Shown here piece after piece: positions 6,788 to 43,197 of a DNA stretch of 64,000 bases (position 1 is the first letter of the stretch; every line of letters starts with the position of its first letter). The notes beneath the pieces are model-generated. The model made no database searches. It saw nothing but the letters and a program-made list of their open reading frames with translations, and was not told where the DNA came from. The stretch lies in NCBI GenBank assembly GCA_019752575.1, contig JAIELW010000013.1, positions 146,573 to 210,572 of the forward strand. The letters are read 5' to 3'. The position numbers and the translations under genes were made by a program. This stretch comes from Xanthobacteraceae bacterium. Lineage in GTDB: Bacteria > Pseudomonadota > Alphaproteobacteria > Rhizobiales > Xanthobacteraceae.

Positions 6788-8098
6788 ATGAAACGCTTTT
6801 GGATTCTCAACGCCACAGTATGCGCGAGCTTCGCAACGACACCCGCATTCGCACAGGCGAGCACAATCAATGCCGCCGACACCGCATGGATGATCGCGGC
6901 CACCGCGCTCGTGCTGCTGATGACGATACCGGGTCTCGCGCTCTTTTATGCGGGCTTAGTGCGTAAGAAGAACCTGCTCGCCACCATGGCGCAGAGCTTC
7001 GCCGCGGTGATGTTCATCTCGCTGCTTTGGTTCGTCGCCGCCTACTCGTTGACCTTCTCCGGCGATGGGCCATATCTCGGTAATCTCGACAAGCTTTTCT
7101 TCGCTGGAATGAATCTCGACTCGGTCAATTCGCTCGCACCGAAGCTGCCAGAGTCGCTGTTTGCGATCTATCAGATGACGTTCGCCGTTATTACCTGCGC
7201 GCTGATTGCGGGCTCGGTCGCCGATCGCATGCGCTTCTCCGCGTTCATTCTTTTTATCGTCGCTTGGCTCTTCATCGTCTACGTGCCGAGCGCACACTGG
7301 ATCTGGGGCGGCGGTTTCCTCTCCGGTATGGGTGTGATGGATTTCGCGGGCGGCATCGTCGTTCACCTGAACGCGGGCGTCGCCGGTCTGGTCGCGGCAT
7401 ACGTCCTCGGCGCGCGCCGCGGCTACGGCAGCGAAAATCTTGCACCTTACGATCTCACGATGGCCGCGATCGGTACCGCGCTGCTATGGGTTGGCTGGTT
7501 CGGCTTCAACGGCGGCTCCGCGCTCGAAGCGGGATCCCGCGCGACCATGGCGATCGTTGCTACGCATCTCGCCGCCTGCTCGGGCGCGATCGCGTGGATG
7601 ATGATGGAGTGGCTCACGCGCAAGAAACCGTCCGTACTCGGAATCATTTCAGGCGCGATTGCAGGCTTGGGCACCATCACGCCGGCCTCGGGTTACATTC
7701 TGCCGTGGCATGGCGTCGTGATCGGGCTTACCGCCGGCATCATCTGCTTCTGGGCCTGTACGTGGCTCAAAGAACGCCTGAAATACGACGACTCGCTCGA
7801 CGTGTTCGGAATTCACGGCATCGGTGGCGCTCTCGGCACGATCTTGACCGGCGTCTTCGCAGTCGGTGCCTTCACCGTGACGAAAGAACTGCCGCAAGGA
7901 CAGCAGGGATTGCTCGAAGGTAATGCGGGTCAGGTGGTGACGCAGGCGATCGGCGTCGGCATCTCCTTGGTGTGGTGCGCAGTCGCGACCTACGTGATCC
8001 TGAAAGTCGTCGATGTGCTTGTCGGCCTTCGCGTCTCGCTCGATCACGAGCGCATGGGCCTCGACGTCACGCAGCATGGCGAGTCGGTTCACACCTGA
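6788..8098 (+). CDS. amtB: ammonium transporter (first copy)
   Basis: A 436-residue Amt/Rh-family ammonium channel with an apparent cleavable signal peptide ending near TPAFAQA (residue 24), followed by the usual 11 transmembrane helices. Conserved pore elements are visible: DTAWM near the start, the twin histidines in GGIVVHLNAG and DVFGIHGIGG, and WFGFNGGSAL. GGGGGACTTCG precedes the ATG. It follows glnK closely and is ended by an intrinsic terminator. A second glnK-amtB pair follows 340 bases downstream. Confidence 0.94.
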   Translation: MKRFWILNATVCASFATTPAFAQASTINAADTAWMIAATALVLLMTIPGLALFYAGLVRKKNLLATMAQSFAAVMFISLLWFVAAYSLTFSGDGPYLGNLDKLFFAGMNLDSVNSLAPKLPESLFAIYQMTFAVITCALIAGSVADRMRFSAFILFIVAWLFIVYVPSAHWIWGGGFLSGMGVMDFAGGIVVHLNAGVAGLVAAYVLGARRGYGSENLAPYDLTMAAIGTALLWVGWFGFNGGSALEAGSRATMAIVATHLAACSGAIAWMMMEWLTRKKPSVLGIISGAIAGLGTITPASGYILPWHGVVIGLTAGIICFWACTWLKERLKYDDSLDVFGIHGIGGALGTILTGVFAVGAFTVTKELPQGQQGLLEGNAGQVVTQAIGVGISLVWCAVATYVILKVVDVLVGLRVSLDHERMGLDVTQHGESVHT

Positions 8099-8128
8099 TT
8101 CACGCCATTGCCTATCCAAAATTACGAA

Positions 8129-8158
8129 CGCGCGGCAGCTTTGCCGCGCGTTTTCTTT
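8129..8158 (+). terminator. intrinsic terminator after first amtB
   Basis: CGCGCGGCA (8129-8137) pairs perfectly with TGCCGCGCG (8142-8150) around a GCTT loop and is followed at once by TTTTCTTT. It lies 31 bases after the amtB stop, so the first glnK-amtB pair probably ends here and the second has its own promoter. Confidence 0.85.
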
Positions 8159-8315
8159 CGTCTGAGTGTGATTCGGGCAGCTCTGCTGCATCTGCCTAAC
8201 TTCTAGGCGAAACCACCGAAAATTGCGGCTTTCCGTAGACCTCTCCTGTTGCCTGCTCATTTCTGAGTCAGCCAAGCCCTTGCGACTCAAGTGATTCCGG
8301 CACGGCGCCCGAGTC

Positions 8316-8330
8316 TGGCACGCCCTTTGA
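8316..8330 (+). promoter_or_regulatory. candidate sigma-54 promoter for second glnK
   Basis: TGGCACG (8316-8322), four bases, then TTGA (8327-8330) reproduces the -24/-12 layout of RpoN promoters (TGGCACG-N4-TTGC) except that the C of the -12 GC is A. It lies about 100 bases upstream of the second glnK, whose family is typically under NtrC/RpoN control. I see no clear NtrC site. The rest of the 341-base gap (8099-8439) holds only the terminator at 8129-8158. The mismatch falls on a critical base, so this is weak. Confidence 0.3.
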
Positions 8331-8406
8331 TTAGTGAGGCCCCGACTCGTCTGCGGGAGCAATTTCCCATGGGCGGAGTCCGATCAGATCGTCCGGTGGC
8401 AGCTAG

Positions 8407-8778
<372 letters not shown>

Positions 8779-22754: not shown

Positions 22755-23636
22755 TTAGTAGCGGACGCCGAGCTTGCGGCAGAGCGCGTCGAGCTGTTCG
22801 AGCGTCTTGTACTTGATCTTCATCTCGCCCTTCGCGCCGCGATTGTTGATCGCAACCGCCATGCCGAGCTGATCGACAAGTTTCTTCTCGAGCGCGCGCA
22901 CGTCCGAAGATTTCGCGGGCTTCGCCTTGCCGCCGCTCTTTGTTTTTGAAGTCTTGCGATCCGCCGGGGAGAGCGCCTCGACATCGCGGACATTCATGCC
23001 GCCGTCGACAATGGCTTTCGCAAGCTTCTCCGGATCGTCGTGCGCGAGCAACGCGCGCGCGTGACCCGCCGTGAGCTTTCCTTCCGAGAGAAATTTCTTG
23101 ACCGAGTTCGGCAGCTTGAGCAACCGGAGCGTGTTCGCGATGTGACTGCGGCTTTTTCCCACGACCTTCGCGAGATCGTTCTGGCTGTAGCTGAACTGCT
23201 CGATCAGGTTCTCGTAACCCGCCGCTTCTTCCAGCGGATTGAGATCGGCGCGCTGGACGTTCTCGACGATCGCGATCTCGAGCGCTTCCTTGTCGTTGAT
23301 CTCCAGAAGCGTGACCGGAACGTCATGCACGCCGGCACGCTGTGCCGCCCGCCAGCGTCGCTCGCCGGCGACGATTTCGTACTGATCTTTCTTGCCGCTG
23401 ACCGGCCGCACCAGGATCGGCTGCAGGATTCCCTTTTCGCGGATTGACGCGGAAAGATTGTCGAGCTCCTCGGAGTCGAATTGCTTGCGCGGATTTTTCG
23501 GATTGGCCTTGATGTATTCGATCGGTACACGCCTCTGTCCGCGCGCGCGATCGACCGCAGCCGTCTCTTCGCCGACGTCGCCGATCAGCGCCGCCAGTCC
23601 CCGTCCCAATCGTGAGCGCTCTTCCGCCATCGCCAT
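22755..23636 (-). CDS. parB: chromosome-partitioning protein ParB
   Basis: A 293-residue ParB/Spo0J: a CTP-dependent DNA clamp that loads at parS and spreads. The N-terminal CTPase motif [12 protein letters not shown], the [18 protein letters not shown] segment, a helix-turn-helix ([23 protein letters not shown]), a basic linker and the C-terminal dimer domain are all visible. Three matching parS sites lie 1.4-4.6 kb upstream in the same gene block. It follows parA by 24 bases. Confidence 0.97.
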
Positions 23637-23660: not shown

Positions 23661-24503
23661 TTACGCGGCCGCAAGCGCGCGTTCGCGCTGCACGATTTCG
23701 GACGCGAGTTTGAGATAAGCTTGGCTGCCGACGCATTTGAGATCGTAGAGCAGCACCGGCTTGCCGTAGGACGGCGCTTCCGACACGCGCACGTTACGCG
23801 GGATCACGGTGTCGAAAACCTTCTTGCCCATGAACTGGCGGACATCGGCGACGACCTGATCCGACAGGTTGTTGCGCGCGTCGTACATCGTGAGCACGAT
23901 GCCATGGATCGAGAGTTCCGGGTTCAGGCTCACCTTCACCTGCTCGACCGTCTTCAAAAGTTGCGACAGACCTTCGAGTGCGAAGAATTCGCACTGCAGC
24001 GGCACCAGCACCGCGTCGGAAGCCGCCATCGCATTGACGGTGAGCAGGTTCAAGGACGGCGGACAATCGACCAATACATATGAGTAGCCATCCGCCGCGA
24101 GCTGGCCGTCGGCGCCGCGCGTCGGGCGGGAAAGTTTCCCTATGGCGTCGCGCAGGCGGTAGGCGCGGTCCTTCTGGGTCGCGAGCGAAAGTTCGAGGCC
24201 GGAGAGGTCGAGCGTCGAGGGCGCGATGTGAAGACCGGGGACGGCGGTTTCGCGAATCGTCGCCTGGATGTCTGAGTCGCCCACCAGCACGTCGAAGGTC
24301 GAGCGGTCCCGATCTTTGCGATCGATGCCGAGGCCGGTCGAGGCGTTGCCCTGCGGATCGAGGTCCACGATCAGCACCCGCTCGCCGATGGCGGCGAGCG
24401 CCGTGCCGAGGTTGATGGCTGTCGTGGTCTTGCCGACCCCGCCCTTCTGGTTGGCGAGGGAAAGCGTCCGGGGGCGAAGGGTGTTGGTCATGGCCGCATC
24501 CAT
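23661..24503 (-). CDS. parA: chromosome-partitioning ATPase ParA
   Basis: A 280-residue deviant-Walker ATPase that forms the gradient for moving ParB-bound origins. The Walker A KGGVGKTT is at residues 20-27 (first Lys is the signature lysine), followed by VLIVDLDPQGNAS and YVLVDCPPSLN. The start at 24503 is taken; ATG at 24491, four codons in, is an equally good alternative. It begins 6 bases after the rsmG stop. Confidence 0.96.
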   Translation of the reverse strand: MDAAMTNTLRPRTLSLANQKGGVGKTTTAINLGTALAAIGERVLIVDLDPQGNASTGLGIDRKDRDRSTFDVLVGDSDIQATIRETAVPGLHIAPSTLDLSGLELSLATQKDRAYRLRDAIGKLSRPTRGADGQLAADGYSYVLVDCPPSLNLLTVNAMAASDAVLVPLQCEFFALEGLSQLLKTVEQVKVSLNPELSIHGIVLTMYDARNNLSDQVVADVRQFMGKKVFDTVIPRNVRVSEAPSYGKPVLLYDLKCVGSQAYLKLASEIVQRERALAAA

Positions 24504-24509
24504 TGGCGA

Positions 24510-25148
24510 TTAACGCCGCTCAGCTTTGTCGATAAGGAGGATTCTACCACGCGGATCGGTAAGGCTATTCCTTAGTTGATAGTTAACGTTCCAAGATTTA
24601 GCGGCTGTAGTCAATTCGTCATCTACATCTTGTGACTTAAGAAATACGCCCTTCGCACCAACAACAAAGAGCGGCTCTGCAAGTTCTAGCAGTTTCGGCA
24701 ATGGCGCGAAGGCGCGCGCAGTTACCGTGTGAATTCCTGTGCTGATACGTTTCGCTGCCGACTCGACCCTTTCTGCATAAACCTCCGCAGTTGAGTTTGA
24801 GACACGCGCAGCCTCGCGAAGGAACGACGCCTTGCGCGTGTCGCTCTCGATCAGATGAAATTTTTTGTCCGGCGCAGCGATCGAAAGTACCATCCCCGGA
24901 AAACCGCCGCCGCTCCCGACATCCACAACTTCTTTCGCGTCCTCAAGGTCCGGAAGCAGCTGCAGGCTGTCTGCGATGTGTCGCGTCCAGAGCGCGTTCA
25001 GCGTGGACGGCGCTACGAGCTGCACGACACGCTGCCATTTCAGAAAATGTTCGACGAAGCGATCGAGCCGTTCCGATGTTTCACGTGAAACGGGCGTGAT
25101 TCGAAGCGCAGCTTCGCGATCTTTGCTGAGAATTTTTTCGTCGATCAT
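24510..25148 (-). CDS. rsmG: 16S rRNA (guanine527-N7)-methyltransferase
   Basis: A 212-residue SAM-dependent methyltransferase that makes m7G527 in 16S rRNA. The SAM motif [16 protein letters not shown] (about residues 76-91) and early [20 protein letters not shown] are typical. Its ATG overlaps the mnmG stop by four bases (ATGA). The codons for PVSRET carry a parS site, an arrangement that constrains this stretch at both DNA and protein level. GC content appears lower than the neighbours in its 3' part. Confidence 0.95.
25077..25092. promoter_or_regulatory. parS site inside rsmG
   Basis: TGTTTCACGTGAAACG matches the parS consensus TGTTTCACGTGAAACA at 15 of 16 positions. It lies within rsmG, encoding VSRET. 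ParB from this window should bind it. Confidence 0.9.
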
Positions 25149-27038: not shown

Positions 27039-27054
27039 TGTTTCACGTGAAACA
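27039..27054. promoter_or_regulatory. perfect parS site upstream of mnmG
   Basis: TGTTTCACGTGAAACA is an exact match to the bacterial parS consensus. It sits in the 79-base gap between mnmE and mnmG, about 40 bases before the mnmG start, so ParB binding could also influence mnmG expression. Confidence 0.96.
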
Positions 27055-27077: not shown

Positions 27078-28409
27078 TCATTTACCAATGCAGAACGAGC
27101 TGAAGATCTTGTCGAGCACGTCTTCGACATCGACGCGCCCGGTGATGCGCCCGAGCGCACGCGCGGCAAGGCGCAGATTTTCCGCGAAAATTTCCTCGCC
27201 CACGCCTGTCTTCGCAGTTTCGAGAGCTGCTGCGAGCAGCTTTGCGGACTCTGCGAGAGCTGCTTTTTGCCGTTCGCGCGTAACCAGCGCGGGTTCGCCC
27301 GCGAAGCGTTCGGCTTCCTTCGAAAGGCGCTTCAACAACTCGTCAATTCCTGCACCAGTCTTCGCGGAGATCGAAAGAGAACCTTTCTGACTCAAGGATT
27401 GTTTCGAGTCTGAATCGGTCAGGTCTGCCTTCGTCTTAATGCGCCAGAGCGTTTGATCTTCGCGAATTGGCAGGCAGATCGAAGCGTCGCTCGCGGGTTC
27501 GAGCAGCAATATGAGATCGGCACTCTCTGCCCGCGCCATCGCGCGCCGCACGCCTTCCATCTCGATCGGATCGGAAGTTTCACGGATACCCGCCGTATCA
27601 ATCAGCACCACCGGTACGCCGTTAAGATCGAGCGCGACCTCGATCACATCGCGCGTGGTGCCAGGAATGTCGGAGACAATCGCCACATCACGCTGGGCGA
27701 GCGCATTCAGGAGCGTGGACTTTCCGGCGTTCGGGGCGCCGGCAATCGCAACGGAGAAGCCTTCCCGGAGCCGCTCGCCCCGCCGCGCATCGGCCAATGC
27801 GGCCTCGATCTCGCTCAACATTCCGGATGCGACTCGAGCCGCAGGAGCCAATAGATTTTTGGGCACGTCGGCTTCATCGGAGAAATCGAGATTCGCCTCG
27901 ATCAGCGCCATCGCATCGATCAGTTGTTCGCGCCAGGCTTCAACCTTCTTCGAAAGCGCGCCCTGATATTGGTGCATCGCCTGCCGGCGTTGCGCTTCGG
28001 TTTCCGCAAAAACCAGATCACCAAGACCTTCGGCGCGGGAAAGATCGATTTTGCCATTCAGCACTGCGCGTTTCGTGAACTCGCCGGCCTCCGCTGGGCG
28101 GAAGCCGGGCAGGATGCCGAGTACCGAGAAGACTTTTGCCAGCACCGCGCGGCCGCCATGAAGGTGCAGCTCGACAACATCCTCGCCGGTCTCGCTCCGG
28201 GGTGCCGGAAACCAGAGCGCCAAAGCATCGTCGAGTGTTTCACGTGAATCAGGGTCGATGAGCTGCGCACGGGAGGCACGTCGCGGATCCGGCAAGTGGA
28301 CGCCGAACGTTTCGAGTCCGACTCGAGCCTTGGGTCCGCTGATCCGGACAACCGCGATGGCAGCCGGTAACCGCCCGCTGGAGAGCGCGAAGATCGTATC
28401 TTCGCTCAC
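27078..28409 (-). CDS. mnmE: tRNA modification GTPase MnmE
   Basis: A 443-residue GTPase that partners MnmG in U34 modification. It has an N-terminal tetrahydrofolate-binding domain (about 1-120), a helical domain, a Ras-like G domain with G1 [10 protein letters not shown]2 PGTTRD and G3 DTAGIRE, and the C-terminal FCIGK with the conserved cysteine. A near-consensus parS site lies in the codons for DSRET (about residues 53-57). mnmE-mnmG-rsmG-parA-parB is a conserved origin-proximal block. Confidence 0.97.
28236..28251. promoter_or_regulatory. parS site inside mnmE
   Basis: TGTTTCACGTGAATCA matches parS at 15 of 16 positions (T for A at position 14). It lies within mnmE. It is the third site in 3.2 kb and the nearest to the proposed origin, about 6.4 kb away. 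Confidence 0.82.
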
Positions 28410-33575: not shown

Positions 33576-34604
33576 CTAGTTTTTTCTCACTCTGGCGATC
33601 ATCCGCTCGACATGTTCGACCGGCGTTTCCTTGCGGATGCCGTGACCGAGATTGAAAATATGCCGGGCGCCTTTGAAGTCGGCGAGCACTTTATCGACAG
33701 CCTGATCCAGTGCTTTTCCACCGGCAAGCAGCGCCAAAGGGTCAAGATTTCCTTGGATTGCGAGTTTATCCCCGAACCTCACAGCACACTCTTTGCGATC
33801 CGTAATCCAGTCGATGCTTATGGCGTTCGCGCTTGATTGTTTCGCCACCGCTTCGATCCCATCGAGTGACGCACCCTTCGGAAAAACGATGATCCGTGCA
33901 TTCGGAACTACGCTCCGCACTTTTTCGGCAATCTTCGCAACCGGCTTCACGCACCAGCGCTCGAACGAAGCCGGATCGAGTACGCCGGACCAGGTATCGA
34001 AAATCTGCACGGCATCTGCACCGGCCTTGAGTTGCCCGATCAGGTGCTCGGCTGAGCTGTCCACCAAGCGGTCGATGATCTTCCGAAACAGCTCCGGCTC
34101 CTGCATTGCCAAGAGCCGCGCCGGTGCCTGATCTTCGGTACCTCGTCCCGCAACCAGATAGGTCGCCACCGTCCAGGGTGCCCCGCAGAAGCCGATCAAG
34201 CCGGTTTCTTTCGGCAAGGCCGCTTTGGTCTTCGCCAGCGCCTCGTAGACGCGGCTCGTGATTTTCCCGTCAAGTTGATCCGAGAGCTTTCCGAAGTTTG
34301 CCGCATTCGCGACCGGCTCGAGCCGCGGTCCTTCGCTCTCCTCGAACCAGAGCTTCGCGCCGAGCGCGTAAGGCACGATCAGAATGTCGGAGAATATAAT
34401 CGCGGCATCGAAGCCGAAGCGCCGGATCGGCTGCAACGTCACTTCCGAAGCGAGATCGGGATCGAGGCAAAGATCCACAAAACCGCCAGCCTTGGCGCGC
34501 GTCTCGCGGTACTCGGGAAGATAGCGCCCTGCCTGCCGCATCATCCAGACCGGCGGCACATCGAACTTCTCGCCATCGAGGACGCACAGAAACTTTCCAC
34601 TCAC
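33576..34604 (-). CDS. hemE: uroporphyrinogen decarboxylase
   Basis: A 342-residue enzyme that removes four carboxyl groups from uroporphyrinogen III. The signature [16 protein letters not shown] (about residues 17-32), [26 protein letters not shown] and FNLGHGI are present. The start is a GTG at 34602-34604 (minus strand). In Caulobacter and rhizobia hemE borders the chromosomal origin, and here it faces the 315-base origin candidate. Confidence 0.96.
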
Positions 34605-34919
34605 GACGCGCTTATCCTTCCTTACTAACTAGTTTCTAGAATCTTTAGTTAGAGTCTGTGTGATGGGTCGAGTCCGTGGACAAGTTTTGTCCGCACCTCA
34701 CACTCCCCGAATCGCTTCATCCCCAAAGTTCACATCGTCTGGAAAGCCAAGCCTGCCTTCGTTTCGGGACTTCTTCCCACAAGTCACAGACATTCTCCAG
34801 AATCATCGCCCGAGGGATTGAATCGGGACGATTCCGGCCGTTATCCCGGCGCGCTCTTGCGCGCATCGATTCTCCGTGGCCTTCTCCCCAGCAATTCACA
34901 GTTCTATGGATGTTCTTTC
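34605..34919. other. candidate chromosomal replication origin (oriC)
   Basis: A 315-base gap between divergent hemE and ppsR. It begins with an AT-rich stretch (34612-34655) holding CTAACTA (34625-34631) and TAGTTAG (34646-34652) around the palindrome TTCTAGAA. Eight GANTC sites fall at 34639, 34652, 34670, 34709, 34800, 34820, 34830 and 34868. DnaA-box-like 9-mers with two mismatches to TTATCCACA occur at 34675-34683 (reverse), 34687-34695, 34717-34725, 34793-34801 and 34882-34890. No perfect DnaA box is seen. Gene direction switches here. Known hemE-oriC linkage in Caulobacter and Sinorhizobium supports the idea; function is inferred. Confidence 0.62.
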
Positions 34920-35762
34920 GTGACCAAGACGGAAAGCTATTTCCATCTGCATCTCGTGTCGGACGCGACCGGCGAGACGCTCTTGGCGGTTGGCCGGGCG
35001 GCGGCCGCGCAATATTCGACGGTTTCGCCGATCGAGCACGTCTACCCGTTGATCCGGAATGTGAAGCAGTTGGAGCCGGTGCTTGCCGACATCGAGGCCA
35101 ATCCGGGGATCGTACTTTATACATTGGTCGATCCGGTGCTGAACGACCGCCTCGAGCGCCACTGCAAGGAGAAGGGGGTTCCCTGTCTCTCTATATTAGG
35201 ACCGGTGCTCGGCCTGTTTCAGTCCTATCTCGGTACGGAAACGACACCGCGCGTCGGCGGCCAGCATATGCTGAACGCCGAATACTTCCGCCGCATCGAC
35301 GCGCTGAACTACACGCTGATGCACGACGACGGTCAGCACGCGGAAAACCTCGACGAGGCGGACGTGGTGCTGGTCGGCATCTCGCGCACCTCAAAAACGC
35401 CGACCAGCATCTATCTCGCGAACCGCGGCATCAAGACCGCGAATATTCCGCTCGTGCCCGGCATCGAGCCGCCGGCCGAGCTCGAGCAAACCAAGAAACC
35501 GTTAGTCGTCGGGCTCATCGCAAGCCCGGAGCGCATCGTGCAGATCCGGCAGAACCGGCTGTTGGGGCTTAACGCGAACCCGGCCGCCTCGAATTACGTG
35601 GATCGTCATTCGGTGAGCGACGAGATCGCGAACTCGAAAAAACTCTGCGCGCGGCACAACTGGCCGGTGATCGATGTCACGCGCCGCTCGATCGAGGAAA
35701 CCGCGGCCGCGGTGATCGCGCTCCTGCAGGAGCGCCGCCGCGACGCGGCGAATGTGCAATGA
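34920..35762 (+). CDS. ppsR: PEP synthase / pyruvate phosphate dikinase regulatory protein
   Basis: A 280-residue bifunctional ADP-dependent kinase/phosphorylase (DUF299/PSRP) that switches PEP synthase or pyruvate phosphate dikinase off and on. The P-loop-like GISRTSKT is at residues 153-160, and the family start [17 protein letters not shown] lies near residue 6. The GTG at 34920 is chosen because upstream in-frame ATG starts extend into non-conserved origin sequence. Its stop overlaps the maf start (ATGA). Which of the two target enzymes it controls cannot be seen here. Confidence 0.92.
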
Positions 35763-41886: not shown

Positions 41887-43197
41887 TTACAAGATGTAGC
41901 GCGAGAGATCCGCGTCCTTGGCGAGATCGGCGACGCGCTTCTTCACGTAATCGCCGTCGATGGTGATTTTCTCGCCGGACTTGTCGGGTGCGGTGAAGCT
42001 GATTTCGTCGAGCACGCGCTCGATCACGGTCTGCAGCCGCCGCGCGCCGATATTCTCGAGCCGCGTGTTCACTTCGACGGCGACATCGGCGATCGCTTCG
42101 ATGGCATCGTCCGTGAAGACGAGCTCGACTTCTTCCGTCTTCATCAGCGCGACCGACTGCTTGATCAGCGAAGCCTCGGTCTCCGTCAGAATCCGGTGAA
42201 AGTCGTTGCGCGAGAGCGGATTGAGTTCGACGCGGATCGGCAGGCGGCCCTGCAATTCGGGCAGCAGGTCCGAGGGTTTCGCAACATGGAACGCGCCCGA
42301 CGCGATGAAGAGAATGTGGTCCGACTTCACCGGTCCGTATTTGGTCGCGACCGTGGTGCCTTCGATCAGCGGAAGCAGGTCGCGTTGCACGCCTTCGCGC
42401 GAAACGTCGCCGCCGCGTAACCCTTCGCGCGCGCAGATCTTGTCGATTTCGTCGAGGAACACGATGCCGTTGTTCTCGACCGCGCGGATCGCTTCCTGCG
42501 TCACCGATTCCTGATCGAGCAGCTTGTCGGATTCCTCCGCAAGCAGAAGCGGATGCGCTTCCTTCACGTTGACCTTCCGCGTCTTCGGCTTGCCGCCGAA
42601 GGCCTTGCCGAAAATGTCGCCGATATTGATCGCGCCCATCTGTGCGCCGGGCATACCCGGAATATCGATCATCGGTAGCTGCGGGTTGCCGCCGCCGGCA
42701 AGCTCGATTTCGATTTCCTTGTCGTCGAGTTCGCCGGTACGCAATTTCTTCCTGAAGCTCTCGCGGGTCGCCGGGCTCGCCGCCGGGCCGACGAGCGCGT
42801 CCAGTACGCGCTCTTCCGCGCCGACATGCGCGCGGGCCTGTACGTCGCGGCGTTTGCTCTCGCGGGTGAGCGCAATTCCGATCTCGACCAGGTCGCGGAC
42901 GATCTGCTCGACATCGCGGCCGACATAGCCGACCTCGGTGAATTTCGTCGCTTCGACTTTCAGAAACGGCGCGTTCGCGAGCTTCGCGAGACGCCGCGAA
43001 ATCTCGGTCTTGCCGACGCCGGTCGGTCCAATCATCAGGATATTTTTCGGCAGCACTTCCTCGCGCAGCTTGTCGTCGAGTTGCAGGCGCCGCCAGCGAT
43101 TGCGCAGCGCAATCGCGACCGCGCGCTTGGCGTCGTGCTGGCCGACGATAAAGCGGTCGAGTTCGGAAACGATTTCGCGGGGCGAGAAGTCGGACAT
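41887..43197 (-). CDS. hslU: HslUV protease ATPase subunit
   Basis: A 436-residue AAA+ unfoldase that feeds the HslV peptidase. Start [33 protein letters not shown] (about 5-37), Walker [11 protein letters not shown], Walker B FLDEIDKI, a long I-domain (about 130-240) and the C-terminal DLSRYIL tail that docks in HslV are present. It lies 8 bases after the DUF2585 gene, in the hslV-DUF2585-hslU order. Confidence 0.97.

Follow-up and report, generated by a model that had tools for sequence, protein, structure and literature searches.

A predicted hemE/COG1806-type chromosome origin with a GANTC-bearing AT-rich element in a Xanthobacteraceae bacterium

Introduction

The chromosome origins of Caulobacter, where the site has been mapped, and of Rickettsia are described as bounded by hemE and a COG1806 gene (PMC1914354). 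The Caulobacter crescentus origin, Cori, combines these boundary genes with an AT-rich region, weak DnaA boxes (described in PMC4468827), several GANTC sites and five reported CtrA boxes, according to PMC1914354, PMC3973325, PMC4468827 and PMC8959179. GANTC, the motif of the methylase CcrM, is reported to be over-represented in alphaproteobacterial intergenic regions; CcrM over-production gives Caulobacter cells with extra chromosomes, DNA content profiles of cells without ccrM resemble those of the wild type, and CcrM was judged dispensable for the control of initiation (all PMC3973325). In Agrobacterium, CcrM is described as affecting the repABC origin ori2 (PMC11514494), and in Escherichia coli the motif of Dam is over-represented in oriC, where SeqA sequesters it, a mechanism stated to be limited to a few Dam-bearing proteobacteria (PMC4285127).

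Here we analyse the spacer between hemE and the COG1806 gene ppsR in a Xanthobacteraceae bacterium. It lies in a window (the whole stretch analysed, 64,000 nucleotides) that covers positions 146573-210572 of contig C3 in a draft genome (G000) of 3.0 Mb and 34 contigs. A preliminary description had read this spacer as a methylation-sensitive oriC because of its many GANTC sites, an AT-rich end, degenerate DnaA-box-like 9-mers and the linkage to hemE.

Materials and Methods

The closest set started from 80 loci found as best PpsR matches, the copy from the genome itself (L001) being removed; eight loci (L005, L006, L012, L022, L027, L053, L056 and L070) were dropped for want of a hemE match in the locus, and the remaining 72 together with the window gave 73 spacers. 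L005 and L006 re-enter only in the close-group alignment. The 73 are rich in Methylobacterium; a thinned set of 35 was also used. The class sample comprised 153 genomes, 106 of them with a PpsR match, of which 100 were used (G080, G082, G083, G084, G121 and the genome itself, G000, were left out); 14 of the 100 had no usable spacer, leaving 86, 75 from genomes with CcrM and 11 from genomes without. The order sample, drawn near-evenly, comprised 63 genomes, 56 with PpsR. Of these, 54 and L188 (from G089) were used, the genome itself again being excluded, and L178 (from G179, a class draw of the same order) was added, so that L178 and L188 count in the class as well as the order comparison. Four of the resulting 56 lacked hemE, leaving 52 spacers.

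Genomes were called CcrM-less when absent from the matches at E = 1e-60 or better, among genomes of at least 95% completeness. Shuffled sequences were first-order Markov samples rather than exact shuffles. GANTC density was scanned over 458,011 bases (the window and 20 further stretches), 15% of the genome. Density was also compared within related loci, using the 70 of the 72 that span at least 5 kb and a thinned set of 36 (L003, L004 and 34 representatives, the window not among them).

Results

The hemE-ppsR spacer has the features of a chromosome origin

The spacer measures 315 bp and is flanked by divergent hemE and ppsR genes, as in origins of the hemE-COG1806 kind. Its AT content is raised to 48%, against about 39% in the whole window, as befits an origin, and the AT-rich end that the preliminary description had pointed out lies on the hemE side.

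33576..34604, minus strand: hemE, uroporphyrinogen decarboxylase (TIGR01464, over its cut-off)
34605..34919, no strand: hemE-ppsR intergenic spacer, predicted chromosomal oriC (boundary genes, noncoding blocks conserved in five close relatives, DnaA-like boxes, skew turn)
34612..34651, no strand: AT-richest 40 nt, 72.5% AT against 48% spacer-wide, presumed from its composition to be the DNA unwinding element; holds TAGAATCT
34920..35762, plus strand: ppsR/COG1806, PPDK/PEP synthase regulator (NF003742, over its cut-off)

The degenerate DnaA-box-like 9-mers were likewise confirmed: five lie within two mismatches of TTATCCACA, against 0.7 expected and fewer than five in each of 300 shuffles, and none in the spacer lies within one mismatch.

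34675..34683, minus strand: predicted DnaA-like box TTGTCCACG, two mismatches (9-mer scan)
34687..34695, plus strand: predicted DnaA-like box TTGTCCGCA, two mismatches (9-mer scan)
34717..34725, plus strand: weak DnaA-like box TCATCCCCA, containing TCCCCA (9-mer scan)
34793..34801, plus strand: weak DnaA-like box TTCTCCAGA, overlapping the GANTC at 34800 (9-mer scan)
34882..34890, plus strand: weak DnaA-like box TTCTCCCCA, within a strongly conserved block (alignment and 9-mer scan)

Among the 7-mers most enriched in the 73 closest spacers are GTCCACA, present in 60 (2.7 expected), and AGAATCT/AGATTCT, present in 54 (3.1 expected); the 8-mer GTGGACAA occurs in 34 of the 73 (1.0 expected). The DnaA words most enriched in these relatives, GTCCACA and TATCCACA, are absent from the window's own spacer, which has AGAATCT and GTGGACAA, a word related to GTCCACA. 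Three of five GTGGAC boxes have a GANTC close upstream, too few to use.

Cumulative G minus C along the 330.7-kb contig C3 falls to the candidate (181.2-181.5 kb), flattens and then rises. Fitted with two slopes (-11.3 and +4.4 per kb), the curve breaks at 195 kb (191-199 kb within 5% of the best fit), 14 kb from the candidate, and the absolute minimum of the contig lies at 213.5 kb, 32 kb away; within the window the minimum is at 43062. By the skew check proposed in the preliminary description, the minimum is not clearly elsewhere; the signal is weak and the agreement coarse, and both concern one contig of 34, the others having been sampled. Between parB and hemE the minus strand carries most of the genes; past ppsR the first genes run on the plus strand. 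A parB and a parA-like gene lie 10-12 kb from the spacer, and between them and hemE there are three parS-like sites, where 0.12 are expected (search allowing up to three mismatches, with what we take to be the parS consensus). The same contig also carries dnaA, at a distance of about 101 kb.

22755..23636, minus strand: parB (TIGR00180, over its cut-off)
23661..24503, minus strand: parA-like gene adjoining parB (ParA-family matches, none of the 25 listed over a curated cut-off)
25077..25092 and 28236..28251: parS-like sites, one mismatch each (motif search)
27039..27054, plus strand: parS-like site, perfect (motif search)

With the boundary genes, the weak DnaA-like boxes, the AT-rich element, the skew turn, parAB with parS-like sites and the conserved spacer all in place, the origin call holds, and we are highly confident that the spacer is the chromosome replication origin, of the hemE/COG1806 kind already known in Alphaproteobacteria. 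A known RNA was rejected as an alternative identity, since positions 34400-35100 gave no Rfam match up to E = 1.

One feature of Cori is missing: the window's spacer has no full CtrA box (TTAA-N7-TTAA), by which Caulobacter-type silencing through CtrA would be recognised, whereas five CtrA boxes are reported in Cori, which we know by description only. The box is also absent in L003, L004 and L007, and it occurs in 49 of the 73 closest spacers (0.1 expected) and in 18 of the 52 of the order sample (1.25 expected), so that CtrA sites at the origin vary within the order. Sinorhizobium meliloti belongs to the same order, Hyphomicrobiales, and its chromosomal origin is said to have been linked to hemE by Sibley in 2006. 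Judged by its description, that origin resembles ours in being reported as free of CtrA-binding motifs and of CtrA binding (PMC4433202).

GANTC is clustered in the spacer and at two other places

Eight GANTC sites do occur in the spacer as first described, spanning 234 bases from first to last. About one was said to be expected by chance, and this too is borne out, with 0.71 from the sampled genomic rate of 2.28/kb and 1.21 from the composition of the spacer; the Poisson probability of at least eight in 315 bp is 9e-7 and 4e-5, respectively. The seven isomeric palindromes occur in the spacer 0, 0, 0, 0, 1, 1 and 2 times. With GANTC so far above expectation and its isomers at 0 to 2, the cluster is not due to chance. 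Across the window the motif is depleted (167 observed against 397 expected from shuffling).

34638..34644, no strand: AGAATCT element with the GANTC at 34639 (AGAWTCT/AGANTCT over-represented in related spacers)
34652..34656, no strand: GAGTC, in the form AGAGTCT in five of six; invariant in 6/6 of the close group
34670..34674, no strand: GAGTC, one base from the hemE-proximal DnaA-like 8-mer GTGGACAA; invariant in 6/6
34709..34713, no strand: GANTC, kept in 2/6
34800..34804, no strand: GANTC, kept in 2/6
34820..34824, no strand: GANTC, kept as GANTC in 6/6
34830..34834, no strand: GANTC, kept in 4/6
34868..34872, no strand: GANTC, kept in 3/6

By alignment column, the GANTC at 34639 is present in four of the six close-group sequences, the other two carrying TAGAATCT shifted by one. 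Over this alignment (n = 6), 16 of 32 columns holding GANTC letters are invariant against 104 of 283 others, a mild difference. In the AT-rich part of the window's own spacer, the GANTC spacings are 13 and 18.

At least eight GANTC per 315 bp were found at three places in the 458 kb scanned: the spacer (8), the amtB-glnK region from 8081 (9) and L088:17277 (9); the next-densest places have five. The motif is thus dense in the origin, but two of the three densest places lie elsewhere. The preliminary description had asked whether the spacer is the genomic maximum and held that the same density in many ordinary intergenic regions would speak against it; in these 458 kb, two places exceed the spacer with nine sites each, and equal density was seen at these two rather than at many. 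GANTC density was accordingly rejected as diagnostic of an origin. In 50 of the 70 related loci of at least 5 kb, no other stretch of equal length is as rich in GANTC as the hemE-ppsR spacer, and in five it shares first place; the corresponding counts in the thinned set (n = 36) are 20 and four.

The other two clusters, whose genes were named by eye, recur in relatives. Within the window, the 300 bases at 8081-8380, which lie upstream of glnK, hold nine GANTC; the amtB-glnK spacer proper (8099-8439) has seven, and five to seven at similar positions in all four relatives compared (a fifth, L211, was left out). Among these sites is what we take to be a sigma-54-like TGGCACG, and a link of CcrM/GcrA to nitrogen control is possible. 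The third cluster, L088:17277-17590 (from position 57277 of contig C3), follows a GNAT-like gene and comprises nine GANTC within 315 bp; the matching 461-base stretch has ten in L088 and six to eight in four relatives.

In related spacers GANTC is concentrated in the AT-rich element

Within their 60 nt of highest AT content, the 73 closest spacers carry GANTC at 30.3/kb against 5.7/kb for the best isomer, and 66 of the 73 have at least one there. The same holds in the order sample (19.3 against 5.8/kb; 36 of 52 with one), in class spacers from genomes with CcrM (8.8 against 2.9/kb; 34 of 75) and in those from genomes without it (9.2 against 3.1/kb; 5 of 11). AGAWTCT is found in 54 of the 73 closest spacers (2.8 expected), its first copy at a median of 47 nt from hemE, and AGANTCT in 27 of the 52 spacers of the order sample (4.2 expected), 24 of 75 class spacers with CcrM (4.2) and 3 of 11 without (0.8). 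Close pairs of GANTC, separated by no more than 13 bp, were counted in 56 of the 73 closest spacers against 9.6 expected, and in 24 of the 35 of the thinned set; the order sample has them in 17 of 52 spacers (4.9 expected), the class spacers with CcrM in 13 of 75 (4.3) and those without in 2 of 11 (0.95). A spacing of 8 bp characterises the closest set (34 pairs against 0.7 expected); it is weak in the order sample, with four spacers against 0.7, and was found in none of the class spacers with CcrM.

Counted over whole spacers, GANTC exceeds Markov shuffles by only 1.5 to 2.1 fold (403 against 195 in the closest 73, 154 against 106 in the order sample, 201 against 133 in class spacers with CcrM and 31 against 20 in those without), which places the signal in the AT-rich element. 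As GANTC there stands far above its isomers, a GANTC element seems to be part of the presumed unwinding region and, as far as sequence comparison can tell, the GANTC-bearing AT-rich element is a real part of these origins. In class spacers such as L148, L154 and L109, AGAATCT/AGATTCT is often followed, by eye, by GTAG/TTGTAGTAG repeats, which we take to resemble DnaA-trio motifs. In a literature that was mostly open-access, we found no description of these origins as having an AT-rich element enriched in GANTC, which is no proof of novelty.

No association of GANTC in the spacer with CcrM was detected

The genome encodes GcrA and CcrM, the latter matching PDB 6pbd over residues 30-378 (E = 6e-158) and the NCBIfam model with E = 2.5e-182 and 605.5 bits against a cut-off of 830. 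In the class sample, GANTC density in the spacer is 6.0/kb with CcrM (75 spacers) and 6.1/kb without (11 spacers; p = 0.60), a comparison that might overlook a modest effect of CcrM, the set without CcrM being small (n = 11) and of mixed base composition, and in which old sites would still be present after a recent loss of CcrM. On this absence of association, dense GANTC was rejected as a trait that goes with CcrM across the class. Spacers with CcrM have a median of two GANTC; three of the 75 have eight or more and 12 have none, so the window's spacer carries more than most members of the class.

Nor does a spacer free of GANTC mark a genome free of CcrM. Among 38 genomes drawn from the 80 loci, L025 has no GANTC in the spacer and no CcrM match (2.0-Mb genome), but L032 and L028, also without GANTC, matched CcrM, in L028 as two pieces on two contigs; L072 has no CcrM match, yet four GANTC in its spacer.

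The element is equally evident in the genomes without CcrM (n = 11), so its sequence probably matters in itself, or else old sites outlast the methylase; the GANTC element in the presumed unwinding region is possibly independent of methylation. The step from dense GANTC to methylation sensitivity, taken in the preliminary description, is not well supported, in view of the two equally dense places, the absence of association with CcrM, the GANTC-free spacers of genomes with CcrM and the reported dispensability of CcrM for initiation control in Caulobacter; its reading of the spacer as an origin is well supported.

The spacer persists in genomes where hemE was not found beside it

Two Xanthobacteraceae MAGs, L005 and L006, have spacer blocks that align with the window's, among them both GAGTC sites (34652 and 34670), the box next to the second of these and the GANTC at 34820. 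No whole-genome match to HemE was found in either at E = 1e-30, and in L005 rho adjoins the spacer where hemE would be; drafts can miss genes, but the place beside the spacer is present, without hemE. As the block is retained where no hemE was detected, it is not merely a hemE promoter, an explanation rejected on these grounds as a full account of it. The arrangement suggests that a haem-synthesis gene was lost beside the origin in L005 and L006.

In L053 (contig C1 of G026), an AT-rich GANTC element lies upstream of ppsR, with hemE about 1.2 Mb away, evidently on the same contig; here the origin apparently remained beside ppsR.

Discussion

The comparisons place the spacer at the hemE/COG1806 boundary, reveal its conservation and the enrichment of GANTC in its AT-rich element, and detect no association with CcrM. 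We think it likely that this is an origin of the hemE/COG1806 kind whose unwinding element bears GANTC and is kept for its sequence, the cluster not being a switch needed for once-per-cycle initiation. DnaA would assemble on the weak boxes between 34675 and 34890 and melt the AT-rich stretch next to hemE (34612-34651). That stretch would include at least one element with GANTC (AGANTCT), retained for its sequence, and CcrM presumably methylates all eight sites, most likely without the cluster acting as a switch required for initiating once per cycle. Against this reading stand the weakness of all DnaA boxes, the absence of the DnaA words GTCCACA and TATCCACA that are most enriched in relatives, the weak skew with its minimum 32 kb off, the mild difference in invariance between GANTC and other letters in the close group, and the small number (11) of spacers without CcrM, in which old sites may outlast a recent loss.

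An origin sensitive to methylation, in which hemimethylated GANTC left by the passing fork would block or delay re-initiation until CcrM acts late, like Dam/SeqA, seems to us unlikely. It could draw on the presence of CcrM, on the eight sites and their concentration in the AT-rich element, on the close pairs of the nearer relatives (56 of 73 spacers, 24 of 35 after thinning) and on reports of extra chromosomes in Caulobacter upon CcrM over-production (PMC3973325) and of a role of CcrM at Agrobacterium ori2 (PMC11514494). The latter is also a GANTC-bearing alphaproteobacterial replication module affected by methylation, but it sits within a repABC operon and is not a hemE/DnaA chromosomal origin. 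What speaks against such a switch is that spacers with and without CcrM are alike, 12 of 75 with CcrM having no GANTC at all, that the same density recurs at two further places in 458 kb, and that Caulobacter without CcrM is reported to control initiation normally (PMC3973325). The E. coli oriC shares with our spacer an over-represented methylation motif (PMC4285127), but it uses another motif and methylase, the loss of CcrM from Caulobacter is described as causing no initiation defect, and the motif does not track its methylase here (75 against 11 spacers, p = 0.60).

The E. coli oriC also carries GATC within the 13-mers of its unwinding element. A GANTC-bearing unwinding element widespread in Hyphomicrobiales, in which CcrM methylation would tune melting, might be an independently evolved counterpart of these 13-mers, layered on an older, methylation-independent element, with GANTC pairs often 7-13 bp apart in the nearer relatives of the window; we offer this as a speculation and consider it unlikely.

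We find it decidedly improbable that the cluster serves hemE and ppsR as a divergent promoter region, responsive to CcrM and GcrA and adjoining or overlapping the origin by chance. Both regulators are encoded, a similar conserved cluster precedes glnK and GANTC over-representation between genes is on record for alphaproteobacteria (PMC3973325), but L005 and L006 retain the hemE-proximal GANTC block with no HemE found, rho adjoining it in L005, and the enrichment peaks in the element of maximal AT instead of being even across the spacer; no sigma-70-like promoter was detected in 34400-35100, a pattern that promoters of this group need not match. A neutral build-up of a motif avoided in genes and accumulating in an AT-richer noncoding spacer is very improbable: class spacers with CcrM have 3.6 times the GANTC of their flanks but 1.7 times that expected from composition (2.6 and 1.9 times without CcrM), the excess over Markov shuffles is moderate in all four sets and clusters occur elsewhere too, yet the seven isomers are not raised alike, the 7-mers AGANTCT are over-represented and three GANTC sites are retained in all six of the close group.

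The preferred reading, an origin with a GANTC-bearing unwinding element kept for its sequence, places the origin for an unstudied lineage. GANTC in this origin is strongly non-random, but no dependence on the methylase emerged from these comparisons. It thereby becomes testable whether methylation, or a plain role as melting sequence, accounts for the CcrM sites of alphaproteobacterial origins.
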